A stretch of DNA of 64,000 nt from assembly GCF_000315915.1 (NCBI RefSeq), contig NC_020186.1, positions 1,364,001 through 1,428,000 on the forward strand, written 5' to 3'. The translations under genes were made by a program, and so were the position numbers. The notes under the pieces were generated by a model. It was not told the DNA's origin. It ran no database searches and was given only the letters and a program-made list of their open reading frames with translations. Source of the stretch: Henningerozyma blattae CBS 6284 (taxonomy: Eukaryota; Ascomycota; Saccharomycetes; Saccharomycetales; Saccharomycetaceae). This document shows, in pieces, positions 4,682-51,038 of this stretch. Every line of letters begins with the position of its first letter. Position 1 is the first letter of the stretch.

Positions 4682-4935
4682 AGTGAATTTCTTGGAATTT
4701 GTGGTAGACGAGATCGACTTTATACTCATCTACAAGTTGCTAACTAGAAATTATCCCTGACTTAAGACATAAATTTATAGTTCTTTCATATAGTTGTATA
4801 GTTTAAAAACGAACAACAATTATATTCGTAAGTTCGAAGGATTAACTGGTGTCAAATAAGTTAATAAGATTGTTAAGTTCAGTTTTTGGTAGTTACTATT
4901 TAAGTGTATCGTACTCCTAAGTTAGTTTACAACAT
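4682..4935. other. Spacer between tRNA-Ala and solo LTR
   Basis: About 250 bp of AT-rich sequence lies upstream of the tRNA-Ala gene. It contains no gene. It could hold an older, unrecognisable LTR, since TGTGG occurs about 19 bp from the tRNA start, but I cannot define its ends. Confidence 0.35.
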
Positions 4936-22139: not shown

Positions 22140-23654
22140 ATGATCAATAGTAAAGATATACTCTTGCATAAAGAACCAAACACTCTATTAAACGAGCCGT
22201 CGGTCGATTTCCATTTGATTTTAAACCAACAATTATTCAACATCCCGTTCAATCTCCTATTGAAGAACGAATCTATACTCTACAATACTCTAGAATCACA
22301 CCAATTACAAATAAAATCCATATCGCAAGAGATTTCAAAACTACTGCAAAAAAAGGAAAAACTCCCCTCCACCTTCGACAAACAAGTGGAGATCACCGCC
22401 GTGGATAAAATCACCTTGCTAATCAACACCGTCGATTCCATTGAAAAATCAATCAAATCAATCTATAATCATGATTTACAACTGATCCTCACTCTAAAGA
22501 AGCGTTACGAGTTTTTCAATAATTTGAAACTCGCCAAAGAAACAAGAAAGCAAAACGCCTTGATAGATTGGTATCAAAACTTAACCAATTTGCTCATAAC
22601 AGACTACTTGATTAGAAATTCCAACGGAACCCCGACTTCCAACAAAGGTATCAAGTTTTTCAATCAATTGCATAACGATCCAAATAATATCATTTCCACA
22701 CATTTGCTAGATTCAGACATTCTCATCACTTCAAATCAGATATCAAATTCTCTTTTGATAAACCATGACTTATCCTTGCTTATCAATTGGATCGAAACAA
22801 ATTCTCATCCACCTTTATCCAAATCGTTTAAAAACTTGATTTTCCAATCAAGATTCCAACAATTCATAGAACTCATCAAGCAAAACGATATTTCCAATGC
22901 AATACATTGTTATCAAATCCATTTGATCAACTTCATCGATGATCCAACCCATTTCAATAACGTGAAAGCCGCATCAGGCCTCTTAATCTTCTACCCCTTT
23001 TTAAAATCTTCGTTATCCTCTTCTAACGACTCAGCAATCACCAGCACAACATATTTTGATAGAATCTTTCATAAAAATTTGAAATCTAAATCACTTTCTT
23101 CTTCTTCTTCTTCTTCTTCTTCCACTATCTCGAATTTCCATAATTTCAAACTAAATAATAACGATTTATCCATCTATAAACATCTTTTGCATGATAATCG
23201 TTGGCTTCAATTGAATGATTTTTTCTTATCGGAATATTATTCCATTTACGGTATCTCCGTAAACGATCCCCTTTTGATTTACTTATCCCTTGGAATTTCT
23301 TCTTTGAAAACTAAAGAATGCTTAATCCATGGTTCCACTTCCACCTCTACAACACCTTCACAAGTCCAATCCTATATTAATGATAATGTTTTAAATAATA
23401 AATGTCCTGTTTGTAATAATGATTTCAAATCCATCGCGTCTCAATTACCTTTTGCTCATCATGATAATTCTATTTTATTCGATAATCCAATAATGTTACC
23501 CAATGGTAACATTTTCGATTCAAATAAATTAACTCAATTGACATCCCAGTTGAAAAGGCAAAACATTTATCATTTAAATGATGATCAAGTTTTGGATCCA
23601 ATAGAATTAAAAGTATTTAATAAAGATCAATTCGTTACAATGTATCCTACATAA
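22140..23654 (+). CDS. FYV10: GID/CTLH ubiquitin ligase subunit Gid9 (Fyv10)
   Basis: This 504-residue RING-like subunit of the GID E3 ligase pairs with Gid2 to degrade gluconeogenic enzymes such as Fbp1 after glucose return. An N-terminal helical region is followed by a LisH-like segment (about residues 140-175), a CTLH domain (about 209-265, LINWIETNSH...FQQFIELIKQ) and a CRA part. A degenerate RING begins with CPVC at about residue 421 and contains LPFAHHDNS and PIMLPNGNIFD, typical of Gid-type RINGs that lack a full zinc set. A Ser run (about 318-327) is coded by TTC repeats. The 3' end overlaps the BDP1 coding end by 8 bp in convergent orientation. It corresponds to YIL097W. Confidence 0.93.
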   Translation: MINSKDILLHKEPNTLLNEPSVDFHLILNQQLFNIPFNLLLKNESILYNTLESHQLQIKSISQEISKLLQKKEKLPSTFDKQVEITAVDKITLLINTVDSIEKSIKSIYNHDLQLILTLKKRYEFFNNLKLAKETRKQNALIDWYQNLTNLLITDYLIRNSNGTPTSNKGIKFFNQLHNDPNNIISTHLLDSDILITSNQISNSLLINHDLSLLINWIETNSHPPLSKSFKNLIFQSRFQQFIELIKQNDISNAIHCYQIHLINFIDDPTHFNNVKAASGLLIFYPFLKSSLSSSNDSAITSTTYFDRIFHKNLKSKSLSSSSSSSSSTISNFHNFKLNNNDLSIYKHLLHDNRWLQLNDFFLSEYYSIYGISVNDPLLIYLSLGISSLKTKECLIHGSTSTSTTPSQVQSYINDNVLNNKCPVCNNDFKSIASQLPFAHHDNSILFDNPIMLPNGNIFDSNKLTQLTSQLKRQNIYHLNDDQVLDPIELKVFNKDQFVTMYPT

Positions 23655-23674
23655 CATAAAGCATATCTTTCTTA

Positions 23675-23721
<47 letters not shown>

Positions 23722-25725
23722 ATTGAAATCACCTCTCATCCATCTATTCCTCTCCTTTTCATTTTGGGCTTCATCCAATTCTCTTTGTCTCTTGATATCA
23801 TCAATAGTACCCAAGACAACTTCCGTCTTACGATACACTTTCAAATCATTATTAAATAACCCACCAGCACCTTTCTTATACCCATCATCTTTCTTGATCC
23901 CACCATTATTTGCCATTTGATCTTCCATCTTGGAATTTAATTTGCTCTCTTCAATTTCTTTCAAATTCTTTTCATGTTCCAATTGTAATTCTTGAATTTT
24001 TGCATTAAATTCCTCCACTGTACCCATTTCTTTCCTTATATCATGACAATATTGTTCAAAATTAATTGGTAATCGATTCTTCAATGCTAATTCTATTAAT
24101 ATTGGATGATGCTTTTCTTCACTTAAAAATTTGGATTTAACTTGTTTACGACTACGATAGGGAAATAATTGTGCAATTAAATTGAAATCAATCCCCCACA
24201 TAGATAACGCCTTGTAAAACTTTATTAATTCTTCATTACTCCATGGTTCACTATATGTATTATTATTGGCATCTTTACGTCCATATGATGCACTATTATA
24301 AAGATTATTAAATGGATTTTCATCAATCACTTTCTTATGTTGATTCTCTAATCTAGCATTCTCATGTCGATCAATTTGTGTACTTTCATCATCAACAACC
24401 ATTTCACCATCTGCATTCAATTTTAATTGAACTCCCGCTTGAGTTTGAGGACGATCCTCCGGAACTTCACTATTCAATAATTCTTCAGCTACTCGTTTAC
24501 GTTCTTCCTTTTCTTTATCAATCTCTTCTTTATTTAATTCTTCTAAAGATTTAAATTCAAGTCTTGCACGACGACGATTCTCACGACGCTCTTTACGTTT
24601 TAATAATTTATTCTTATGAGCTTCTTTAGCTCTATCAAAATTCTCACTTATTGTACCAATGGGTAATGATGGTTTACATAAATCAGCCATCGTAAATGAT
24701 TCTTCGTCTAATATATATTTACTGGATTCACTAACTGGAACATGTTTGGGAATCTCATCAAGATTCTTGACAACATATTGTTCATATAAATTATCCGTTC
24801 GTTGAAATAACCCATCTTTTTGATTAGATTGTTGTTTTTGTTTGGGATTCACAACAGAGGTACTACCGGGCATCGGAATTCTAGTAGCAACACTAATACG
24901 ATGCGATGATGATCCAGATTTTTTAGATATCGATGAACGAACTGACATACGACGTCTTTTCATAGCTTGTAATGAGGAATCCTTTTCAGTAATACTATTA
25001 AATCTCATCTTATTCAATCGAACATTTGTCACTGAAGGTAATCGACTATTTCTTCTAGAGCCTAATGTTTCATTAGGTTCATCTTGATTAAAAGTTGGTT
25101 TGAAATTCGGCCGTAACCCTCCACTTAATGAATCTAATCTAGTAGATCTTCGACGATGTGATGTAATTGATGATCCACCAATAGAGTTTGATCTTGAACT
25201 TAAATTATCAATATCAGATGGTGGTTGACCTAATAATTTATGATGTGCTTGGAAAGGTCCAAGATGAACTTCTACACGTTTAGAAGAATTATTTAAAGAC
25301 GCTGATTTAGAGGTATCATTTACTTGAGTAGGCCCATCAAGCTCGTTATGATTCATAACAGGTTGTGTGTTTATGAATGAGACATCATCAGGTGCTTGAC
25401 TCTCTAGTTGTGTTTCAAAATGTTTATTATTTGACTTATTATTCGAATCTATTTGGTTCTTTAAATTACCGGAATCGTTCCCATGCTCAATTTGTGTAGG
25501 CCCATCAATTCGATCATTATTATTCAATGGTTCTTTTTCATTGGAAGTTCCGGACTCATTATCATCTTCATCATCATCATCATCATTATCATTATTTCTA
25601 TGATTTATTAAATTTGGAATTGAATTTATATTGGGTTTTTCAATAGATTTCACAGTAACAGCAACACGACGTTGTCTGATTTTCGGTATAAAACGTTTAC
25701 CACTTTTATTAACAACGTTACTCAT
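23647..25725 (-). CDS. BDP1: TFIIIB subunit Bdp1 (TFC5, B'')
   Basis: This 692-residue subunit of TFIIIB works with TBP and Brf1 to recruit RNA polymerase III. The opening MSNVVNKSGKRFIPKIRQRR is typical of fungal Bdp1. The N-terminal half is disordered, with repeated DGPTQ motifs and an acidic run. The conserved core includes KHVPVSESSKYILDEESFTM and a SANT/Myb domain at about residues 493-540 (EPWSNEELIKFYKALSMWG to RKQVKSKF), followed by the long-arm helix. The final ~20 residues (YIYIYIYIERERERE...) are translated from a TA/CT microsatellite and are surely not ancestral. The S. cerevisiae protein has 594 residues, the difference being mainly disordered parts. It matches YNL039W in the same ancestral block. 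Confidence 0.94.
23683..23721. repeat. (CT)n-(TA)n microsatellite inside the BDP1 C-terminal codons
   Basis: About 16 bp of CT repeats are followed by about 22 bp of TA repeats. They are read in the BDP1 frame as alternating Tyr/Ile and then Glu/Arg residues just before the stop. Confidence 0.9.
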
Positions 25726-26256: not shown

Positions 26257-27468
26257 CTAATAAGGCTTGAAACGAGCTTTCTTTGAATGCTTGCTACTCT
26301 TCTTCTTACTCTTCTTACTCTTCTTTTCTTTCTTGTGAGATTTTTTGTGTTTTCCTTCTGAAACTCCTGGTTCGGTATTCTCTGTACCCATATCAACTTC
26401 AATATCATCATCATTCTCATTAATTTCATCCAAAACATTTAAACGTAAAGAATAATCGAAAAAATGTTCAGGTATTTTCAAAGATTTCGTAGTTGTATCA
26501 ATTTTCCAAAGTTTAACATTACCATCTTCACCACATGAGTACATATTACTAGGATCATTTGGATTAATAAATACATCTCTAATTACTTCATCACCATGTG
26601 CTTGTGGTATTATAATATTATTATCTTCAGCTAAATCAATTTTCTCATTATTAAATGGTGAAATCTTCAATTGACCTTTGCTTTCTTCGGTTTTACCTGT
26701 AGCAATATAGCCAGGATAAACATCAATAACGTAATTACAACCCCAATCGTTTCTGATATCACCAAATTCTATTGGCTTAGGTTCCTTTAATACTTCAGAT
26801 TTATCATTTAATTGATGAATTGCAAATGTTTCCATATGTGATAAAGTAAATATTCTTCTCGATGATAACCAACCGCATGAATGAATAGATGAATAATTAA
26901 TAACTTGGTGTAATGAATCTTCTTCTTCAGTTTCAGTCAAATCATAAATATTTGTGTATCCATCTGTAGAGCCACTCATTAGAACTTTAGAATCGTTTGG
27001 ATGAAATTTAATGTCTGTTATATCATCATGATGTGAGTCAACAAAAGATCTTATCGGAGTATCCCAACTTCTAATATCATATATATATAATTCTGCATCA
27101 ACACCACTTAACTCAGTCCCACATGCCATCATATTATGTAATGAATCTAAGGACAAAAAGGGCGAATTTTTTTCATTAGTTATTGTTTTTATACAATCAT
27201 TTGATTTCAAATCATATATTTTTACTGATTCATTTGTTGCTGTAACCATTAATGAACCACCATTGTAATTATTGTTTACAATTTCAAAATCATTTATTGA
27301 TGTTTCACCAATTTTAATCTTATCTTTGATTTGATTGGTTTTCCAATCTAAAATGCTAATTTCCCCATTACTCAAGCTAGTTAACAAACCATAGTTGTAC
27401 AACGGTTTAAACTTCAAACACCAATTGTTAGAGCCAAAAGATGTTAAATTGATTGGGATAACTGACAT
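26257..27468 (-). CDS. WD40-repeat nuclear protein (YNL035C / WDR89 family)
   Basis: This 403-residue beta-propeller protein of unknown function is the likely counterpart of YNL035C. WD-type blades are visible, for example DITDIKFHPNDSKVLMSGS followed by TDGYTNIYDL, and DVFINPNDPSNMYSCGEDGN followed by VKLWKID. The C-terminus is a very basic Lys/Ser tail (KKEKKSKKSKKKSSKHSKK), a probable nuclear localisation signal. The start MSVIPINLTSFG gives an ordinary N-terminal blade. It lies next to BDP1 and near NCE103 (YNL036W), in line with ancestral order. A TTACCCG (Reb1-type) word lies about 120 bp upstream, near 27588. Confidence 0.85.
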   Translation of the reverse strand: MSVIPINLTSFGSNNWCLKFKPLYNYGLLTSLSNGEISILDWKTNQIKDKIKIGETSINDFEIVNNNYNGGSLMVTATNESVKIYDLKSNDCIKTITNEKNSPFLSLDSLHNMMACGTELSGVDAELYIYDIRSWDTPIRSFVDSHHDDITDIKFHPNDSKVLMSGSTDGYTNIYDLTETEEEDSLHQVINYSSIHSCGWLSSRRIFTLSHMETFAIHQLNDKSEVLKEPKPIEFGDIRNDWGCNYVIDVYPGYIATGKTEESKGQLKISPFNNEKIDLAEDNNIIIPQAHGDEVIRDVFINPNDPSNMYSCGEDGNVKLWKIDTTTKSLKIPEHFFDYSLRLNVLDEINENDDDIEVDMGTENTEPGVSEGKHKKSHKKEKKSKKSKKKSSKHSKKARFKPY

Positions 27469-29206
27469 TCTTAGTCAGGAAGTTTAATCCAACAGAAACT
27501 ATCTATCTTAGATCTTTAAAGAGTTGTTTAATTTTTTTTTTATGTTCAGGAATTTTTTGGATGATATACTTGATGAATATTTACAATATTTACCCGGACT
27601 TAAATGTGATAAATGATATCTTTAGTGCATCTCTACATTAAATCCAATAAAAAGATATATTATTAGTTAATAAAGAATACATTTAATAAACATACATTAT
27701 GTTATACCTTTATGGATTGTAATTTCTACATACATTAATGCCAAAGTGTTGAGCGTAAAATATTACGTACTAAGTGATATTTTTATACAACCTGTATTTC
27801 TCGGAATATAAATAGAGCTCGTTTTTATATACTTCTTTAGTTTTATATACGTATTTACCCCGAGGAGGACAATTATAAGAACAGTTAATACCAAAAAGAT
27901 CGTACACAAAGCTGTAGCTTAATGCACGGTGGGTTATTACTCATATTAAGTTGTTATTAGTTTGTTGCTTAAAGCCACAATTATGACGACATCCAGTTTT
28001 TTTAGCATAAAGCTAGAGCTATGACATATTTATATTAGATAATGTCTTAGTATTTTTTGAGGTTTCAATTATTTAGATACACAAAAATTATCCAGGTAAT
28101 TAGAACTCGTGCATTAAATGTATATTATATAACCATATCTTACTCTCTTATTTTGTTCGAAACGTATACTATAAAGTAAGGTTAATAGAATTAAATAAAA
28201 TAACAATTTTAAGATAAATATTTTGCTGAGTTCAGTAAATACCACTACTAACAAGACCTAGAATTATTATGACCAAATCCAAAGCAGCAAGAGCCAAGCC
28301 TCACTAGGGCAAAATATATATATATATATATCAAAAATTTAGTGTAAAAAATGTGAATATTAAAGTAAAAATATTTACTTTATTTAAAGAAGAATAAAAT
28401 AATTCCCAGCTCTATGGGTAAATTGAATTCTCTGTTATTTTCAATAATAATTACAAGAAGGTCTTAAAATATATGAATGAGATAAGAAAGTGGAAAATAC
28501 CATAATAGAATTACTGGAATTGAAGAGAGGCTGGCATTATTAAATAATAAATTTTGATGTAATTTTGGATTACTTCTTTTACATACTCAATAAACATCTA
28601 TATTAATTTACAAAGTATATTCTTTATATAGTAAGTTAAAACAAGCTCTATTCATAAATGTTCTTTAACCTTAAAGAACATTTCCTTTTCTTTAACAAAT
28701 ACCTTAATTACGAACCATACCAGGCATGTGAAAATTAAACACTTAATAAAAATGTCTTTTTAAGAAATAAATAGAAAATAATTATATTATTTTCCAACAA
28801 GAATATGTAGTTGAGTATATTATAACAAGATAAGTAATGATGAAACTTAGGAGATAGTGACAAAACTACATAACCAAATATTTTAGAATTTAAATATTCT
28901 AGAAGTGTAAATCAATTTTCAGATGAGCTTAATGAAATAATCAAGCTCATAGATTGGCAAATAATCTGGATAATAAGCATTTTTAACATAATTAGGCTAA
29001 TTATGAGAACTGAGTCTTGAAATCCAAAAAATGAGAATAACAACGAGCCATATCAAGCAAGTATTATAAAATTGTGTGTGAGTGCTTACTGAATAGTACC
29101 ATTTTATCATTGTTATTTAATAGAAATTACCTACTCTTCTTCATCATGGAATTATCTAACAAGCTATAGATTTTTGCAAAACATTTTCCTGTTTTTTACG
29201 AAGTTC
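27469..29206. other. Gene-poor AT-rich DNA, left part of the 8.7-kb desert
   Basis: No gene is recognised. A Reb1-type TTACCCG near 27588 and a TATA repeat near 28315-28331 are the only clear short signals. All longer frames are interrupted. The region may hold decayed genes or retroelements, but I could not align any part to a known family. Confidence 0.5.
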
Positions 29207-29631
29207 TGTTGTAATACGAGACTGACAGGACAAGGATGGTGTTTCAGAGTTCGGATGGTAGTGAGATCAGTAGTTACAGGTTGTATTACACAAGATTATT
29301 GTATCTCCCCTTGGTCCTTCTCTACATAGTATATAATAGCATATTGATCTATACATGCTCCTTATATACATCTTTAGAGCTGGCCAGTTCTGGGCGCATA
29401 GTTACAAGATACGGTACACTCATTGAAACCTGGGTGTCATTCTTACTAATAGGTATCCTAGACAAACCAGAAGTAGGTACAGATTCAGTGGTTACAGTTG
29501 ATGTTCCACGCCTGCTGAATAGTTGTTTCTCAGCTGTGGTCAGCTGATCTGTCCTCTCTCGAGGCTTCTTTTGTACTGATTTCTTGTAAGTATTACGTGA
29601 AAGGCGACGGCGCTTAGACGGTTTTATAACA
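29207..29631. mobile_element. Candidate LTR beside tRNA-Pro (Ty3-sigma-like ends)
   Basis: The segment begins TGTTGTAATACG and ends TTTTATAACA, so its tips are near-perfect inverted repeats (TGTTGTAA / TTATAACA) like those of sigma LTRs. It stops 12 bp upstream of the tRNA-Pro gene at 29644, the spacing at which Ty3 inserts. A TATATAATA box lies near 29330. No clean target duplication is seen and I found no second copy, so this is a candidate only. Confidence 0.4.
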
Positions 29632-29643
29632 GTTTTCGTAAAA

Positions 29644-29732
29644 GGGCGTGTGGTCTAGTGGTATGATTCTCGCTTTGGGCTAATACAGCACGAATATGCG
29701 AGAGGCCCTGGGTTCAATTCCCAGCTCGCCCC
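29644..29732 (+). tRNA. tRNA-Pro (TGG anticodon) with 17-nt intron
   Basis: The acceptor stem is GGGCGTG/CTCGCCC with discriminator C. The D-arm is TGGTCTAGTGGTATGA, the anticodon stem TCTCGC/GCGAGA and the T-arm CTGGGTTCAATTCCCAG. A 17-nt intron (29680-29696) follows position 37, the canonical site. A T-rich terminator follows at 29733. Mature sequence and intron position agree with yeast tRNA-Pro(UGG). Confidence 0.96.
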
Positions 29733-30125
29733 TTTCTTTTAAATTTTTTTGGTGTAACAAATTTATGCTTTGCTACTCCCAGTAGTATATCTTTTTGACT
29801 GCTAGTTTAATACCAACTGTTTATTAAACTATACAACTATGTGCCTGAGCCTATGTAAGTTAAATAGTATTATTATTACGTTCCGATTTGTTCACTATAC
29901 ACTTCCATCTTTTGTATTTCGTCCTTTTTGTTTTCTGGTTCTTACCTCTTTGTTCTACCTTAACCCTCTAGTTTATTCTTTTAGCTTTAGATTCTTAAAT
30001 AGAATTTATGTTCATGATTCACTTACTTGTTAATCTACATGTTCATTCCGTTGTCACGTGATCCTGATTTATACACGTTACTACTAACGTAGATCACACT
30101 TCGTGACATTTTAACAAAAAGAAAA

Positions 30126-30214
30126 GGGGCGAGCTGGGAATTGAACCCAGGGCCTCTCGCATATTCGTGCTGTATTAACCCAAAGCGAGAATCATACCAC
30201 TAGACCACACGCCC
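30126..30214 (-). tRNA. tRNA-Pro (TGG anticodon) with 17-nt intron, second copy
   Basis: This differs from the copy at 29644-29732 at a single base, the first of the intron (T instead of C), and lies in opposite orientation. The two genes converge with 393 bp between them. The T-rich terminator is at the lower-coordinate side. A solo LTR begins 16 bp upstream of its 5' end. Confidence 0.96.
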
Positions 30215-30230
30215 TTTTATCACGTGTTTA

Positions 30231-30464
30231 TATTATGTAGTAATCTGGTTAGTATTTTACAGATGACTATAACCCTGATTATTCTCATAATTATAACTTA
30301 CTTATCTTATTCTGTGTAATTCTATATAGATGCCTCATGGGCATCGTTTTATATACAAGCGAGTTTACGCGTCGCAACATGTTGACGCAAACGTCTCTGA
30401 TTTAGTTAGGGCTTGTAAGCTCCTAACCCTGGACACAGTGTACTGACAGTATCACTATGCCACA
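30231..30464 (-). mobile_element. Solo LTR, copy B, inserted upstream of tRNA-Pro
   Basis: This 234-bp element matches copy A (4936-5134). On its own strand it runs TGTGGCATAGTG to ACATAATA. It is flanked by GTTTA on both sides (30226-30230 and 30465-30469), a 5-bp target duplication. The duplication begins 11 bp from the tRNA-Pro 5' end, the spacing of Ty3-type insertion at Pol III start sites. A ten-base TGCCTCATGG / CGATGCCCATGAGGCATC hairpin lies mid-element and is missing from copy A. Confidence 0.85.
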
Positions 30465-30469
30465 GTTTA

Positions 30470-31762
30470 TTTTAAAATAATATAGAACAGGTGTAGAAAT
30501 GGAAATATATATCAATAATTTTTCCCATCAGTAAATTATAATTTGCTAAGTACTCCAAGAAATGTAAATTGTTGAGAGAAGCTATAGTTTATTACAAATT
30601 TAGTGATTGAATGTTGTCTTACAGCAAACAAGTATGTACTCCAAAAATTAGATAGATGGAACTTTTGAAGGTCTTCCATGATAAGGGCCTTCGTCTAAAG
30701 GTTTAATCAATCTTTTTAGATATATTTAACTTTGTTAAATTAGAACTTACCATTCACTTTTAAAATTCATAGAACACTAAATATCAACTGGATAAGATGT
30801 TATGTATTATTATATTGCGGTAGCTGGTTGCGAGACATAAAGTTATGGATCTTATTTCAAGCTACAAGATGTTAATCCGATATTAACATGTACCTATGAA
30901 TTCGAAGAATTCAATATTTTACTCACTTGCAAAAAATCCTCATAGTTATCTAATTGTATGCATTAGTAACCTCCGCTTAAGAAACTGAAATTATTGTAGA
31001 TCTTAACGAAGTGTTATTATTTAAAGATATTATCAAAGGAAATGCTTAACTAATACAAACTTATAAACTTATAATCTTACGATCATGCAATCCAAGAATT
31101 GTTCCTTAGTTATTACAATTCATTTTAAAGTTTATATTATTATTCTTTGTGGGCATTAGGCTTGAGACGCTTAATCAAAAAATTAATCACGACATCATCA
31201 CTTAAGGAATTTTGGGTTAGTTATTACGATATCTATAGAAAGTGGATAGGTAGGATTCGATGATACAAGGAAGATAGTTCTTTTAATTATACCATAAACA
31301 TCAAGCTTGTGCACAAAAGTTCCCGCACAGATAGTTGGCTTTGACTTGGTAATAATTAACAACCACACTTTCATGGCCTCTCGAAAAGGTCAAAAACCAC
31401 TCTAAGGCTAGAACATAAAGGTTAGCAACTAAATTACCGATTCTTTCACGTTTGACTTTATATTTCACTCTCAAAGATTACAGAAGGCTGTGTAATTCAC
31501 CAGTGTATTTTCGTTCACTAGTTAAAAAAATGACAAACCTTAACTTCCGTAGTAGAGGATATCATGAAATACAAACAAAAAATAGATTAAAACAGAACAA
31601 TATTTACTACTAATAGAATTGATGCTACCATGTGTTATAGACCGACACCTAGCCAACAATAGTCTTTATTTAGTAACTTATTAATAGACATAAACAACAT
31701 CTCTGAGCTCCCAGTAACATCAGTTATACTTGTTTCACTAACCCTCCCCCATAAAAACAATT
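30470..31762. other. Gene-poor AT-rich DNA between LTR and integrase relic
   Basis: No intact gene, RNA gene or repeat is recognised. If the Ty3-like relic at 31763 was once a full element, reverse transcriptase and RNase H would have lain here, but I could not identify their motifs. Confidence 0.45.
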
Positions 31763-32041
31763 CTTTATAAAGTAAACACAATTACTACAATATCCCCTTA
31801 CCTCTATTAGCCCTCTAAGACAGTTGATATTCGGCCTTATTTGAAACGTTGTCTCCAATGTCAATTGATGAAAAAGTTGTCTTTTTAAAATGATGGAGAA
31901 TTGGAACCTTTTGACATTCCCCCCTCAAAGGTTGTTAGTTAGATTGATTTTATTACTGAAATCGTTATTTCACATACAAAATATACTATGATTATAGTCG
32001 TAGTGGATAAGTTCTCTAGAAGTGCGTACTTTATCCATACG
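31763..32041 (+). pseudogene. Ty3/gypsy-type integrase relic
   Basis: One frame reads, with stops at 31808, 31886 and 31940, a recognisable Ty3 integrase piece. It contains TTISPYLY-stop-P, where the TAG probably replaces the conserved Trp of YWP. Next come DIRPYLKRCLQCQLMKK (the C-x2-C-Q half of the HHCC zinc finger), GELEPFDIP, then IDFIT with the first catalytic Asp of the core, and MIIVVVDKFSRSAYFIHT. The match to Ty3 is essentially gap-free over about 90 codons. After a stop at 32042 the core is no longer recognisable, so the second and third catalytic acids are missing. It is non-functional. Confidence 0.85.
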
Positions 32042-32137
32042 TAAACTACTTTAGGCTCTTCTCTTCCTCCAGCTAATAGCACGTTTTAATGCTCAATACA
32101 AACTACTCTCTTTCAAATCGATTTTAGCTATATTTCT

Positions 32138-32728
32138 AATGAAACCTTGTTAGATATATGCAATGATTTATCTAACAATAATATATCAGCTGTTGATATA
32201 CCTAAAACATTTTAATCAATTTTGTTAAGAATCACTGATCTTCTGTTTCAATCACCAGATGATGTGGAGCTTATGACTAATGCAACTTAAATTCCAAAAG
32301 ATAACCAAACTAATGATTATGCCTATGTATTTGGTATCACTTATTTAACGGTAAAAAAGTATTTGAAAATTCAACACATATCACTGGATCCGGTTAAGAT
32401 CATAAATGTTGGCACTAATACTATGGAGTTACTATCATCATTCGAAAAAAATCGAACTATTAACATAGGATAGATCTAAGGATTCCTCTATGATACAGAC
32501 AGATAATCTAAGAAATTATCAGGCGCATATATCGATAGAATTTAAAACTTCAATAAAATTATTTCGATAATTGACTTTAATGTAGAAACTTGTGAAGAGT
32601 TTTGTGCCCAACAATATATTGATCCTATTCTTACTCGTACCTATAATTTTGAAATGTTTAATACCTTGCCTATGTTGATTATAACATCTTTGCTGGCCGA
32701 CTCTAGTACATTATCAAACTCCAATTAA
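32138..32728 (+). pseudogene. Decayed ORF of unknown origin
   Basis: The same frame as the integrase relic stays largely open for about 197 codons with only about six stops, fewer than expected in DNA this AT-rich. Segments such as DYAYVFGITYLTVKKYLKIQ and FNVETCEEFCAQQYIDPILT look protein-like. I recognise no family. It may be a further part of the retroelement, or an unrelated dead gene. Confidence 0.35.
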
Positions 32729-33425
32729 GGGAGCAAAGATGATGTAAACCTGTAGATCATTTGAATCCTTTGCAGTGAAGTTAATTTCAGTCAGACTTTA
32801 AACAATAATTCTGTTTACTAGCTAGTTATAAGTATAGAAACCTCCTACCCTCTTGGGTAGGAATAAGTAGTATATAAAGATATATAAAATACAAAAATTG
32901 TATGCAGACTAAAGGTTTGGTAATTTACACATTTTGGCTTGGACAAGAGTTGTCAATTCATCATCATCTACAGCTGAAAAAATGTTTTTTCATCCAAATA
33001 ACCTCATAAATGTTGCCTGGCTCTTAGGATTAGTATAACATGTAAATACTACATGTTATACTGAATTCGGTTAAAAACAATAATAACTATTTTTAGTTGA
33101 AGCTCATACGCTTAGTTGAAAGTTTATAGGTGAAATAAAGACTAATACTACGGTAGACTACGAGTTGGGTTGTAATATGTTGTAATAACGTAAAGGGTTG
33201 TCTTAATGATTATAAACTTGTGATATACTTAATTACTTTACAATCATCGCCCTCCAAGATGCCACTGTATCCCTTAAGTTCCGACAATAACCTCCACTAT
33301 AGCTTCTTTTGGAATATATTCCTTAGTTCACTCCTTTCTTGGTCGAAATATATTGATTTGTATAAGGTCTATTCAATAGCAACTAATAAAGGTTACAATT
33401 ATCTGTGGTAGATCCAGTTAGGGCA
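32729..33425. other. Gene-poor AT-rich DNA
   Basis: There is no recognisable gene. A CCTACCCTCTTGGGTAGG palindrome lies at about 32847-32864. The only longer frame (33220-33411) has no domain. Confidence 0.4.
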
Positions 33426-34050
33426 TGTGACCACGAGCTCGTGGGGTCACGTGGGAAGAAGCCAGACTTTGAGGCTTATACAGATGAATAAGTATGTAGC
33501 TTGAAAATGTGCACGGGAAGAATGTATTTCGAGAGAGGATAGCGTAATCTATCATCGGGTCTTAAGAGATACAGGAGTATCTAAGAAGACAAGAGATCTG
33601 AGATGATCTACAGGGCGAGCCTGTAGATATCAGATACAAGTTAGAAGTAGGTTAACTTCTGAGTTAACTCTACACGTGGGATGATAGGTAAATGTTGAGG
33701 TACGGTACTACCATCATCGGCAGAGACTATGCGGTAGGCGTAGTCTATGAATTGGGACTGCGGTTACAATTCTGCTCGTTAAGAGTATCTTCCAGAACGC
33801 CGGTTCTGATGAGAACATAATTGTTATGTCCAGGAAGCTTGTGTCTGACGAGACATAGGTCTTATATAACAGGAACGTTCTATGAAGATGGATATACAGA
33901 AAGAGTATTCTGTTTAACGAAACAACCAAATTTTATATTAATTCCTGACTGAATTCGAAAACCGGGTAATATATACATTTTATATAGCAAGAATTATATA
34001 ACTGACCGTAGAACAATCTACGACATTATCACATACAGCACGTGACCACA
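33426..34050. other. Hairpin-dense segment, candidate structured RNA or selfish element
   Basis: About 625 bp, less AT-rich than its surroundings, carry at least ten short perfect stem-loops in series. Stems of 9 bp are at 33606-33628 (ATCTACAGG/CCTGTAGAT) and 33724-33746 (AGACTATGC/GCGTAGTCT). Stems of 6 bp are at 33567-33582, 33643-33660, 33749-33772, 33793-33808, 33815-33829, 33896-33913 and 34007-34022. A 14-bp palindrome is at 33431-33444. The ends pair through GGTCACGTG (33445-33453) and CACGTGACC (34039-34047), and GTGACCAC occurs as a direct repeat at both edges. The edges also read TG...CA, so an unusual LTR is the main alternative. No coding frame is evident. Confidence 0.5.
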
Positions 34051-34069
34051 AATATTCTTTCAAAAAATA

Positions 34070-34143
34070 TGGTTCCTAGCGGGATCGAACCGCTGATCCC
34101 CGCGTTATTAGCACGATGCCTTAACCAACTGGGCCAAGGAACC
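34070..34143 (-). tRNA. tRNA-Ile (AAT anticodon)
   Basis: This 74-nt gene has acceptor GGTTCCT/AGGAACC, discriminator A, D-arm GGCCCAGTTGGTTAAGGC, anticodon loop with AAT (CGTGCTAATAACGCG) and T-arm AGCGGTTCGATCCCGCT. There is no intron. The hairpin-dense segment ends 20 bp from its 3' end. Confidence 0.97.
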
Positions 34144-36162
34144 ACTTTTTCTTGTTTTTTTTGAATAACTATACAGATGACTAATAGCATAGCATAATAA
34201 GCTTTATTCCATTAACAAACTGTAAATTTTCATAGAGAAAGTAATATTTTGATAAGATACCTGACCAAAAAGCGCAAGATATTTAAATTACTGGGATTCA
34301 AGAGAGTTAGACATTGTTATACAGTGTTTAAGATGTAAAGACGATTACTTTTATTTAAAAATATATAGAAAAATACTATAACTAAAATGAATATATTTCT
34401 TAAATAGTGTTTTTCTATATAAACAGAAAAACACATTTTAAACAATAAGTCACGTGATAAAAGTATTTTACCACTTAATAGAAAATGATATAATCATATT
34501 CCAGCATAAATATTTACCAAATTCATGCAGTTACTGCTGTAATATGATAACTAAACACTAGTTAATATTGTAAAACTGTCTACATTATTGAAAAGAAAAG
34601 TAATCTACTTTGCATGTACGAAACTGTTTCCCTAAATTCTAAGTTCCTAAAATTCTAATGGATCATTTTATAATATCTTAAATAAGTTAGAAGATAGTTC
34701 AAGAGAAATGCTTGGTTCTATGCATGAAACGATAGTTGATTTAACGATATGAAAATAGACCGTTGCATGATTGTGTGAAATTTTTTTAAAACACTTTGTA
34801 GGTGACGGTGGTGATATATTGCTAAGGAATATAAATCCAATAGTACCTATAACAACATTATCCAGAAGATATTGATATTCTAATATTAATTTAAATGCTG
34901 CAATATTGGTCTAGCAATAGATAATTAATACATTGGACATTATTTACTATTATCCAGAGAATAATAATACCTTTAATTCAGTAACAAAAGTAGACTTATT
35001 TTTTTTATGTTCTGTAAAATTGAAGATTTTTTATCAACTACTTATACCATCGATTGGCCCCTAAGACACTCTTACTATTTTCAATATCTTTGTTTAAATG
35101 GAAAAATTTGTATTCATTAAACAAGGCTACCTCTTATAGTCTACAATATTCAATGAACTATTATTACATTGAGATAATAGTACTACCTGAATATACTTTA
35201 ATCCAGTATTGCATAGCCCGAAACTCCTACTTGTAGAACAAGTTGTTCACAAGATCTTATAAGAGATTTTGCAATATGCGTTGCATCACTAGTGAATATG
35301 GTTGCCAGAAAAAAACATGTAACGTCACAATAAATATTAACCTGTGGTTCATCGTATTCAGATAAGATAATAAGAGATGATTAAACAGATCGTCTATTAT
35401 CACTGGAAATTTTAATGGACAAGCTTGGAATATTCCAAAACAGAACGATTAGTGTTTTTTGCAAGAAGTCTCTATTTCGACATACAGTAACATTTTATAA
35501 ATTCTACTTAAATTCTAGTGTATACCATTCTAACATCAATTAACCCTCCTAATCCAGCATATGTGGTCAAATATTTTTTTTATTTAAGATTACTTGTGAG
35601 AGCTGGGCCCCATTTCTAATTATTTTCTCCTTTTCCCGAAAAGTGAGAACTGTGAAAAACAAAATTGGAAAAACGAACTGCGGACCACATTGGACCAGAT
35701 TTGTTTCGTAAAGGGACCTTTAATTTAGGAACTTTCTTCATGGGTTGAATATTACAAAATCGTACTTGTAATTAAAATCGTAAATGTCTGTCACCGTTGA
35801 TAAGGTGAAAACATACGTAGTTACAATTAATTACCTTTTTTTTTACTAAGAGCTTTGAATACGCTCTTGAAGCAATTTGATTGGACAAATATCCTAAGTT
35901 CTGAAATTTCAAATTCGAGAAAAACAGATAATTAATTTAATAAACAGTTCAGGGGATTATATCAGCAATTACTGCCGGATTTCCTTTAATATATACTGTG
36001 ATACAAAAAGAATATTTATCCTCCAGTTTTGAGAACGATTATTTTACAGTTGGTTTTAAAAAAATAGGATTGTTATTAAAGCAGATAAAGGCCTACGGAT
36101 TCATACTACTCCTATCGCTAAAATACACAATACTACTGCATATTATATAAGCCTTTATTATA
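34144..36162. promoter_or_regulatory. Gene-poor DNA and PRK1 promoter region
   Basis: Two kilobases upstream of the kinase gene lack any recognisable gene. The part nearest the kinase (from about 35590) is less AT-rich and probably contains its promoter, with a possible TATA box ATTATATAA at about 36141. The short frame at 35054-35236 has no features of a real protein. Confidence 0.4.
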
Positions 36163-38316
36163 ATGAATCAGCCGCATATCAAAAATTATGATCCAGGTAC
36201 CAAACTGAATGTTGGTATCCACCAAGTTTCAATTATCAAATATCTAACCAGTGGTGGGTTTGCTCAAATTTACCAAGTGCAAGTTAACCCACCAAATCCT
36301 ATTAATGGTATGAATTTGGCTTGTCTAAAGAGAGTTATTGTACCTGAAAAATCAGGCTTAAATACCCTTCGAGCTGAAGTAGAGGCAATGCAGCTATTGA
36401 AAGGAAAACCTCATGTGGTAGGTTACATTGATTCTAATGCGGCTAGGTCGATTTCTAATGATGGCACCTATGAGGTTCTTCAGTTAATGGAATTTTGCCC
36501 AGGTGGTGGGCTAATTGATTTTATGAATACGAGATTACAGAATCGATTAAAAGAATTCGAAGTTTTAAATATCATGAATCAAGTTACACAAGGGATAGTT
36601 GCAATGCATTCGTTAAATCCTCCTTTAATTCATCGTGATATTAAAATTGAAAATGTACTGATATCAAGTAATGGTGAATATAAAGTTTGTGATTTTGGCT
36701 CTGTCTCTGGTATTATTAGGCCACCAAAGAATACCGAAGAATTTAACTTTGTCCAACAAGATATAATGAAAAATACTACTGCCCAATACAGATGTCCTGA
36801 AATGTTAGACTTATACCGTGGTCAACCAATAAATGAGAAGTCTGATATTTGGGCATTGGGTGTATTTCTTTATAAAATTTGCTATTATACTACGCCATTT
36901 GAAAATGGGGGTGAAAGAGCTATATTGCATGCAAGATATCAATACCCTCAATACCCAATGTATAGTTCAAGATTGAAAAATTTAATTCGAATGATGCTAA
37001 TGGAAAAACCTGAACAAAGACCAAATGTTTGCCAAGTCTTGGAGGAAGTTTCAAGTATGCAAGGTATCCCATGCCCATTACCAAATTTCTACTTACAAAG
37101 ACAACAGGCTACTCAATTAATGATGAATAACACAAATGGAAGTATTTATCCTATACCAACACAAAATACTATGATGAATCAAATGCCACCTCCGATGAAT
37201 ATGATGAATAACTCACAAATTGCAGCCCAACATAGTTCAAATATGATGCCACAATCAATACCACAACCATTATATACTAATTATAGTAACAATTCCATGA
37301 ATGCGAACATGAATATGAGCCCCAATTATGCTTACCCAACTAGTCCAATAATGTCTCAAGGACTTTTCACTGGGCCTACTCTGCATCACAATTTAACATC
37401 TCCTATTTCACAGCCAAAATCCAAATCTGAGAATACAACTGGTAACGATGATCCATTTGCCAAATTAAAAGATCAAGCATTATTTAATAAAGTCAATGCT
37501 AATAATACTAATACAAGCGTTAATGACCATAGCTTCAATATGTACAGCACCAAGCAACAAAACATGGCTAATAACTTTAATAATAACAACAGTAATAATA
37601 TGAATCCATTAATGAAACAAAGAAGTGATAGAACTAGAATTTTTGACATGCCTCAAAATAAGACACCTGCTATGACTCAAAATTCTGTTAATTATTTGTT
37701 ACCTGGACACTCATCCGAACAGTCTATTAGAAAAAGTACATCCTCTACTTCACTACGTAATATTCAAAATGGTGGTAATCAAGTTTTATCTCAAATTATG
37801 TTTAATAATAATAAGACTGGCGAGAGAACATCGAGTACTAGTAGCGTATCTGCTCCTTCATTATCTAAAAACATGGTTCCTTATATACCACCCAATTCAT
37901 TTACTTCAACAAACAATGCAATGGTATTCAGAGAAAATGAATCATCAAAAGCATCTATTAAATTGCGTGTACAAAATTTATTAAAAACATCTAATAGTGG
38001 GAATAATGATAATTCTTTGAGAAGAACCACTTCTGATACACAAAATGGAAGCCAATCTAATAATTCTTTAAGAAAAGTAAACACTCATCAGGTTGATTCT
38101 AACTATACAACTTCTGAGAAGAAAAAGGCTCCAAAACCACCTCCAAAGCCTGATTATTTAAGACCAAAGAAACCGCCCAAACCTGCCAATTTACAAGGTA
38201 TGAAATTTATGAAAAGTGAAAATGTTGAACAAGAAATCAAAGAAAGGAAAGAAAATAGTAAGAAGCAGTTGCAAAAAATGGAAGTTGATTTTTCTCAACG
38301 TTATCCTAGCGTTTAG
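36163..38316 (+). CDS. PRK1: Actin-regulating Ser/Thr kinase Prk1/Ark1 (NAK family)
   Basis: This 717-residue kinase phosphorylates LxxQxTG motifs in Pan1, Sla1 and other endocytic coat proteins and so disassembles actin patches. The kinase domain spans about residues 20-300. It contains the Gly loop SGGFAQIYQV, the catalytic loop HRDIKIENVL (from residue 157), DFGSVSG (from 177) and TTAQYRCPEMLDLY in the activation segment, as in the NAK family. A long Asn/Met-rich disordered region follows. Near the C-terminus the proline-rich KAPKPPPKPDYLRPKKPPKP (about residues 654-673) is the expected Abp1 SH3 ligand. Neighbour LYS12 makes YIL095W (PRK1) the natural assignment, but ARK1 (YNL020C) is its ohnolog. 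Confidence 0.93.
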   Translation: MNQPHIKNYDPGTKLNVGIHQVSIIKYLTSGGFAQIYQVQVNPPNPINGMNLACLKRVIVPEKSGLNTLRAEVEAMQLLKGKPHVVGYIDSNAARSISNDGTYEVLQLMEFCPGGGLIDFMNTRLQNRLKEFEVLNIMNQVTQGIVAMHSLNPPLIHRDIKIENVLISSNGEYKVCDFGSVSGIIRPPKNTEEFNFVQQDIMKNTTAQYRCPEMLDLYRGQPINEKSDIWALGVFLYKICYYTTPFENGGERAILHARYQYPQYPMYSSRLKNLIRMMLMEKPEQRPNVCQVLEEVSSMQGIPCPLPNFYLQRQQATQLMMNNTNGSIYPIPTQNTMMNQMPPPMNMMNNSQIAAQHSSNMMPQSIPQPLYTNYSNNSMNANMNMSPNYAYPTSPIMSQGLFTGPTLHHNLTSPISQPKSKSENTTGNDDPFAKLKDQALFNKVNANNTNTSVNDHSFNMYSTKQQNMANNFNNNNSNNMNPLMKQRSDRTRIFDMPQNKTPAMTQNSVNYLLPGHSSEQSIRKSTSSTSLRNIQNGGNQVLSQIMFNNNKTGERTSSTSSVSAPSLSKNMVPYIPPNSFTSTNNAMVFRENESSKASIKLRVQNLLKTSNSGNNDNSLRRTTSDTQNGSQSNNSLRKVNTHQVDSNYTTSEKKKAPKPPPKPDYLRPKKPPKPANLQGMKFMKSENVEQEIKERKENSKKQLQKMEVDFSQRYPSV

Positions 38317-50226: not shown

Positions 50227-50419
50227 TATCACCTTATAATTTACACAAGCTTTCAGAAAAATAGATTATCATCTAGTTGTACTATCTCTATATATTATTA
50301 TTAATGCATTTTTCTTTTTTAAAAATATCATCAAAATTTATAAAGTTAAAAGATTTGTTTAACAAATTACAATTTTTTGTAAAGATAAAAATAAATTTCG
50401 AAAAAAAAAAATAAAAATT

Positions 50420-50512
50420 TTAAGATTCAGAAATTGAAGCAAGTCTCTTCCCATGCTATTATTTTTAGCTCAGAGCTTGACTCTATGTTGCATAGTTATT
50501 TCATCATTAAAA
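50420..50512 (-). ncRNA. snR66: C/D box snoRNA, snR66-like (guides 25S Um2417)
   Basis: On the minus strand box C ATGATGA is at 50507-50501, box D' CTGA at 50473-50470 and box D CTGA at 50430-50427. The guide immediately upstream of D' contains AGAGTCAAGCT, complementary to the conserved 25S rRNA segment AGCUUGACUCU. The base five nucleotides from D' pairs with the U corresponding to U2417, the snR66 target. In S. cerevisiae snR66 lies beside NME1 near SSN8, as here. Ends are approximate. Confidence 0.85.
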
Positions 50513-50703
50513 AAAAGTACTAATTTTTTTTCTTTTTCGATTATTTTTATTACAATTACAAAATATTGTAATACTCTACTGAGTAAAAACAAACAAAATG
50601 GCAATGTTTAATTCAGTTTGGCACCTTTGAAAATGCAAAAGAAACTAGTTCTAAGAACTAATCTTCAAACTGTTTTTATTAAAAAAAATAAAAAAAAAAA
50701 TTT

Positions 50704-51038
50704 GGAATCCATGAACCAAGAATAGTAAGCTCCATTGGGTTACCATAATTTTCATAAAAAAAACTACAGCAATCGTCATAACTATGGTTTGAGATGTACA
50801 GAAAACACCTCCTTACCGAAAATACACTAAATTTCTCAGAAGGAAATCTAGGATAGGAAAAAATATAATAAATTATATTTTTTAATGAGTTGATTTAAAC
50901 ATTTTAAAATTTTTAAATCTCATTACGTTTTCCGCATATAGACTGGTGGGAGACTTTCGACCCAAAGCATGGTATGAGTTTTAATAAATAAAACCCTTTT
51001 GTAAGCTTCGATTAGTGACGATTCTTTGGTTATGGATT
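50704..51038 (-). ncRNA. NME1: RNase MRP RNA
   Basis: This is the RNA subunit (about 335 nt; 340 in S. cerevisiae) of RNase MRP, which cleaves pre-rRNA at A3 and some mRNAs. The 5' end AATCCATAACCAAAGAATCG continues with CACTAATCGAAGCTTACAAA and matches yeast NME1. It pairs with the 3' end ATTCTTGGTTCATGGATT to form helix P1. GGTCGAAAGTCTCCCACC is the CR-I part of the catalytic P4 helix. GAGAA in TTCTGAGAAATTTAG fits the GARAR loop of the specificity domain. A TATATA box lies about 30 bp upstream near 51065-51075. It lies 5' of an snR66-like snoRNA on the same strand. Confidence 0.92.

Follow-up and report, generated by a model that had tools for sequence, protein, structure and literature searches.

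A hairpin-rich island in the yeast Henningerozyma blattae is a solo LTR located just downstream of a tRNA-Ile gene

The hairpin-rich island at positions 33426-34050 of the window (the whole stretch of 64,000 nucleotides from the Henningerozyma blattae CBS 6284 genome that was analysed) is a solo LTR of a yeast retrotransposon and not an RNA gene. The LTR, designated A here, occupies 622 bp of the + strand (TGTGGTAGAT...ATCTACGACA, 33404..34025, with edges set by aligning copies) and is flanked by the target-site duplication TTATC on its left (33399..33403) and on its right (34026..34030). It is read as a solo LTR because TG...CA ends, 5-bp duplications and dispersed copies are the marks of insertion by a retroviral-type integrase. 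The solo LTRs of Saccharomyces Ty1-Ty4 are alike in their TG...CA ends and in their tRNA-gene neighbourhood; Ty elements are also known for 5-bp target duplications, and their solo LTRs far outnumber full elements. We consider it highly probable that a retrotransposon inserted 43 bp beyond the 3′ end of a tRNA-Ile gene and that recombination between its two LTRs later removed the interior, leaving the solo LTR. It also seems reasonably likely that two budding-yeast LTR families (A/B and C), whose LTRs are not recognisably related, integrate just downstream of tRNA genes, with Ty3-like and Ty1-like families of the same genome integrating upstream, and hence that different integrases find docking sites of their own upstream and downstream of each tRNA gene.

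Edges, copies and surroundings of the element

The original prediction placed the edges of the element at 33426 and 34050 and closed it with a terminal inverted repeat, whereas the copies place the repeated unit at 33404-34025. The right arm of that repeat (CACGTGACC, 34039..34047, + strand), which is found between the LTR and the tRNA gene, and the second GTGACCAC therefore lie in the flank. The quoted motifs themselves are present, with GGTCACGTG at 33445, CACGTGACC at 34039, the direct repeat GTGACCAC at 33427 and 34042, and the palindrome CCACGAGCTCGTGG at 33431. However, since CACGTGACC is outside the LTR and only GGTCACGTG is inside it, this pair does not define the element, and the 14-bp palindrome, which is exact in just one of the 13 A copies, was rejected as a feature of the LTR. 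The suggestion of an unusual LTR with TG...CA edges was right as to the kind of element, its true edges being 33404 and 34025 and its duplication TTATC. The first 10 bp of the LTR (33404..33413, + strand) are complementary to the last 10 bp (34016..34025, + strand) save one base, as read directly from the sequence, and the TG...CA ends hold, with a changed end in some copies (L010, L018, L024 and L027).

A BLAST search of the 14.04-Mb genome returned 29 rows, two of which are one copy, giving 28 copies or fragments including the one in the window; the further copies with target duplications that the original prediction proposed to look for do exist. Exact 5-bp duplications, each of different sequence, accompany 7 of the 20 separate copies with both ends recognisable (the window copy, L012, L016, L019a, L023, L026 and L033), as tallied by eye and with duplicated loci counted once (L009 duplicates the window locus, L030 duplicates L029 and L031 duplicates L027). 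Among the 13 copies without an exact duplication, L024 and L027 show a 5-bp duplication if an altered dinucleotide at the LTR end is accepted, four of the five positions agree in L014 and L025, and the remaining nine have no convincing duplication. The copies fall into two subfamilies. Subfamily A includes 13 long copies that are 91.9-96.6% identical to the window copy (among them the duplicate L009, as well as L013, which is cut at its 5′ end), and the members of subfamily B are 80.0-93.1% identical to L024. The 3′ part of the LTR (33676..34025, + strand, the last 350 bp) is common to A and B at 85% identity, the match spanning positions 273-622 of A, while the 5′ part (33404..33675, + strand) is specific to A, only one 28-bp stretch being matched before position 273. 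Weak fragments that were found only with the B query (C8:743.7k, C3:156.6k and C1:2445.9k) were left out.

Searches for reverse transcriptase (RT) and integrase (24, 19 and 29 matches) revealed no A/B LTR pair around gag-pol among the matches listed, and for A/B neither an interior nor a primer-binding site or polypurine tract was detected. Of the signs by which the original prediction would have recognised an ordinary LTR, dispersed copies and 5-bp duplications were thus observed, but an adjoining retrotransposon interior was not. Five A/B matches have RT or integrase matches no further than approximately 4 kb away, but in no case do A/B LTRs form a pair around one: C6:470575 has a fragment of an E-type copia RT behind it, C1:2018121 has a gypsy element across a tRNA gene, C1:1677175 is a fragment beside a gypsy RT, and C3:1030706 and C3:9725 have integrase matches 3-4 kb away. 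A same-strand pair on C5, approximately 4.5 kb apart (L019), was rejected as a full element, as it consists of one A and one B LTR with a tRNA gene and C and E LTRs between them. A pattern made of the LTR end and TGG gave two matches (one in the control), one of which is the L028 copy, and likewise led to no full element. In L010 and L017, approximately 35 bp following the LTR are identical, and a 30-bp search with up to 3 mismatches detected only these two places and gave no full element; this common flank may be a remnant of the interior or the product of a recombination. In addition, 43 nt close to the 3′ end of the A LTR match an LTR-like piece that follows a truncated copia RT in L082 (score 49, compared with 30 for the best of 500 shuffles), which may be a hint of a link between the A LTR and copia; the B LTR scored 32 against the LTR-like piece in L082, the same as its best shuffle (32).

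The part of the window that surrounds the island (27468-36163) is gene-poor and filled with retroelement pieces around tRNA genes. A weak remnant of another A/B LTR (profile positions 54-185, nhmmer E 4.9e-8) lies inverted at 33251..33384 (- strand), an LTR-like stretch common to L036 and L057 is found at 32746-33055, and pieces resembling L042, L048 and L045 are present at 29207-29497, 28512-28793 and 27747-27901, respectively. Elsewhere in the window, a protein with a Myb_DNA-bind_7 domain is encoded at 23650-25725 (- strand), which we take to resemble Bdp1 of TFIIIB, a part of the Pol III machinery, and the genes for snR66 snoRNA (50416-50519) and RNase MRP RNA (50709-51036) are close together on the same strand (-). 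The window also encodes a Fap1-like protein, which among named hits is most similar to Naumovozyma dairenensis (62%), followed by others, with 52% to T. phaffii.

Hairpins and fold of the LTR

The abundance of hairpins in the island and its fold are not due to chance. The series of tight hairpins in the original prediction was borne out: the island (33426-34050) has eight perfect non-overlapping hairpins (stem of at least 6, loop of 3-6), whereas 500 dinucleotide shuffles have 0.62 on average and never more than 4. As anticipated there, its folding energy is also below that of all 20 shuffles on both strands (z -8.7 on the + strand and -6.6 on the - strand). For the exact LTR (33404-34025), z values of -6.4 and -5.7 were obtained and none of 60 shuffles was lower on either strand, and 18 other 622-bp slices of the window, folded on the + strand only, ranged from -3.1 to +2.0. 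The base composition is indeed unlike the surroundings (40.5% GC in 33426-34050 versus 30.9% in the 3 kb on either side). The absence of a coding frame and of a recognised RNA likewise stands, considering that no ORF of at least 120 aa was found within the island, that the longest stop-free stretch within the LTR is 72 codons, and that a search of the island against Rfam gave no family at gathering score; at E values up to 5, the matches besides the neighbouring tRNA were all sub-threshold.

The eight hairpins, all on the + strand, were compared between the copies. The hairpin at 33567..33582 (stem 6, loop 4) has all of its pairs intact in 8 of the 13 A copies and in one of the 9 B copies, that at 33606..33628 (stem 9, loop 5) in 12 of 13 A and none of 9 B copies, and that at 33651..33668 (stem 7, loop 4) in 11 of 13 A and none of 9 B copies, with at most one pair missing in 8 of the 9. 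The hairpin at 33793..33808 (stem 6, loop 4; 11 of 13 A copies) is the only one that is fully paired in most B copies (7 of 9). It is followed by hairpins at 33815..33829 (stem 6, loop 3; 12/13 A and 1/9 B), 33896..33913 (stem 6, loop 6; 3/13 A and 0/8 B), 33970..33986 (stem 6, loop 5; 5/13 A and 0/8 B), and 34007..34022, which overlaps the LTR end (stem 6, loop 4; 8/13 A and 0/9 B). All 13 A copies fold below all of their 25 shuffles (z -3.4 to -8.1), and the fold of the B copies is weak, with z from -0.4 to -4.3 and energies below every one of the 25 shuffles in only 3 of the 9. Among the other LTR families, C folds no better than its shuffles (z -0.6 on either strand), and folding is clearly better for D (-5.0 on the minus strand) and E (-3.1 and -4.2).

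Between the window copy and B, changes were found in 113 of 971 stem cells versus 238 of 1085 unpaired cells, and among A copies in 131 of 2827 stem cells versus 160 of 2604 unpaired cells. The compensatory changes that the original prediction had proposed to look for in homologues were not supported, as double changes in stems were not above the permuted control either in the half common to A and B (14, where permutation gave 6.9 on average, sd 3.3, max 20; the pair is kept in 4 of the 14) or among B copies (27 versus 16.0, sd 4.8, max 33; 16 paired). Pairs surviving a double change went mostly from GC to AT, and C-to-T decay on both strands would give a similar result. The fold is best read as a property of the A LTR, probably of the A LTR RNA, and selection on it is suggested; the hairpins may represent the folded LTR part of the element's own RNA and not a host RNA. 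The structure of Ty3 genomic RNA has been mapped, and therefore folded RNA of an LTR element is, as such, already known, so far as the part of that study drawn on here extends (PMC11381356).

LTR families on the two sides of tRNA genes

The LTR in the window faces the 3′ end of a tRNA-Ile gene (anticodon aat; 34069..34144, - strand, Rfam match 34070-34143) at a distance of 43 bp. Based on Rfam tRNA calls on the flanks, a tRNA gene is present within 1 kb of 22 of the 25 separate A/B copies (the duplicated loci L009, L030 and L031 being left out), and the other three (L021, L027 and L034) have no tRNA gene in the flanks examined. The LTR is on the 3′ side of the tRNA gene in 21 of these 22 copies and on the 5′ side in one (L017), for which the binomial p of 1.1e-5 overstates independence, since neighbouring loci carry common duplicated stretches (such as the tRNA-Thr gene and C LTR of L016 and L018, 98%) and the copies may therefore not all be independent. 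Both orientations occur. The gap between the LTR and the tRNA gene is 42-121 bp in the 11 copies without an intervening C LTR, and in the 10 copies with one, the gap minus the length of C, a subtraction that assumes the later arrival of C there, is 10-175 bp in nine and 449 bp in L028.

The C LTR (353 bp) was sampled as the best 20 of 44 rows matching the L024 copy (105 candidates, 40 scored), including the query's own locus (L066). All 20 sampled copies lie past the 3′ end of the closest tRNA gene, at distances of 1-67 bp for 19 of them and of 369 bp for the other; 12 are in the tRNA sense and 8 antisense, and an exact 5-bp duplication is present in six. Genome-wide, 78 C 3′ ends were detected with at most 2 mismatches, compared with none for the reversed pattern. 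Comparison of the LTR matches listed with the RT and integrase matches revealed no interior for C. A C LTR in L038 was examined as the 3′ LTR of a copia element and ruled out, a tRNA-Ala gene being approximately 18 bp past it. A possible place for a full C element is marked by C3:746745 and C3:753646, C 3′ ends that share a strand and are separated by 6.9 kb, with no RT match among those listed there.

The sides taken by D and E were scored only near C. In the sampled C loci, all 10 D LTRs lie on the 5′ side of the tRNA gene (eight at 12-28 bp, the others at 445 and 539 bp), as do all nine E pieces, which come from eight of these loci (63-935 bp); short pieces outside these counts (D in L071 and L084, and E in L067, two pieces, and L082, one piece) are by eye also on the 5′ side. 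A 711-aa frame that contains integrase and is adjacent to gypsy RT matches ends 11 bp before D, which is for this reason a Ty3-type LTR, and E LTRs, which are situated behind copia RT frames, are probably of the Ty1 type. D and E are clustered at the same tRNA genes as A/B and C but, unlike them, on the 5′ side, and they have a gypsy frame adjoining (D) or copia RT frames in front (E). The window offers one case of each: a C LTR at 29753..30108 (+ strand) that is flanked by two convergent tRNA genes, whose 3′ ends are 20 and 17 bp away from it, an E LTR at 34289..34506 (- strand), 144 bp away on the 5′ side of the tRNA-Ile gene, and a D LTR in two pieces at 4700-4934, which is separated by 18 bp from the 5′ end of a tRNA-Ala gene, all of which fit the side pattern of their families. 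Between them, the LTR families of the genome seem to partition the upstream and downstream sides of tRNA genes.

Alternative explanations and known systems

A fold far below that of shuffles, along with stems that differ less than unpaired sites do when the window copy is compared with B, might be expected of a conserved structured non-coding RNA gene, one of the readings first offered; yet the sequence is a dispersed repeat whose copies carry target-site duplications, the fold belongs to the LTR, no Rfam family reaches gathering score and covariation is little, and such a gene was ruled out as next to impossible. The idea of a hairpin-rich selfish element is correct only insofar as a retrotransposon LTR is meant. 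The 10-bp inverted ends and the 5-bp duplications were also weighed for a MITE-like DNA transposon, that is, a non-autonomous element that has a folded body between short terminal inverted repeats and is moved by some transposase. Its inverted ends are near-perfect, its fold is strong and an RT-bearing interior was not found for A/B among the matches listed, but the combination of TG...CA ends, 5-bp duplications and a Pol III gene neighbourhood is made of LTR traits, which are common to D with its adjoining gypsy pol frame, and we therefore regard a MITE-like origin as very improbable.

Accepting the island as a solo LTR, the downstream bias could be a matter of survival and not of targeting, if 5′-side insertions were lost or overwritten by D and E. 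Only surviving copies are visible, and the 5′ side is occupied by these two families; however, D and E show that the 5′ side tolerates insertions, and C is confined to a 1-67 bp band in 19 of the 20 sampled copies, which makes this explanation unlikely, albeit worth some weight.

The textbook example of integration upstream of Pol III genes is provided by the retrotransposons of yeast. Insertion of Ty1-Ty4 upstream of these genes, as described in the part of a 2018 review drawn on here (PMC5911963), differs from the position of A/B and C downstream of tRNA genes. The same part of the review confines downstream-of-tRNA insertion to dictyostelids, as opposed to S. cerevisiae (PMC5911963). Among the elements of that group, Skipper-2 is an LTR element that inserts 7-136 bp downstream of tRNA genes, again according to a partial view of its source (PMC5006619); A/B and C resemble it in this placement, whereas Skipper-2 belongs to an amoeba, is of the Ty3/gypsy type with a diverged chromodomain and has a known interior, A/B and C being known from LTRs alone. 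TRE3 of Dictyostelium, found 40-150 bp downstream of tRNA genes in the portion of the review used (PMC5911963), is a non-LTR element in the orientation of the tRNA, unlike A/B and C, which occur in both orientations. An extra peak of Ty1/Ty2 prediction downstream of tRNA starts was given by one method and is ascribed to low resolution in the part consulted of the corresponding report (PMC10347736). Among the open-access papers listed by literature searches, titles and abstract openings mentioned no LTR elements downstream of yeast tRNA genes. Provisionally, downstream-of-tRNA targeting by yeast LTR elements would thus be new, and the LTR itself is ordinary.

With regard to the mechanism of such targeting, the integrase may be led downstream of tRNA genes by the Pol III machinery, either by Pol III near the terminator or by TFIIIC over box B. 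Tethering of the integrase to Pol III or TFIIIC is an inference from the analogous cases of Ty1, Ty3 and TRE3, as these are treated in the portion of the review drawn on (PMC5911963).

The recognition of the hairpin island as an ordinary LTR spares others the chase after a false RNA gene. If the division of sides is true, the presence of upstream and downstream families at the same tRNA genes would make the Pol III and TFIIIC surfaces that are read by integrases testable.
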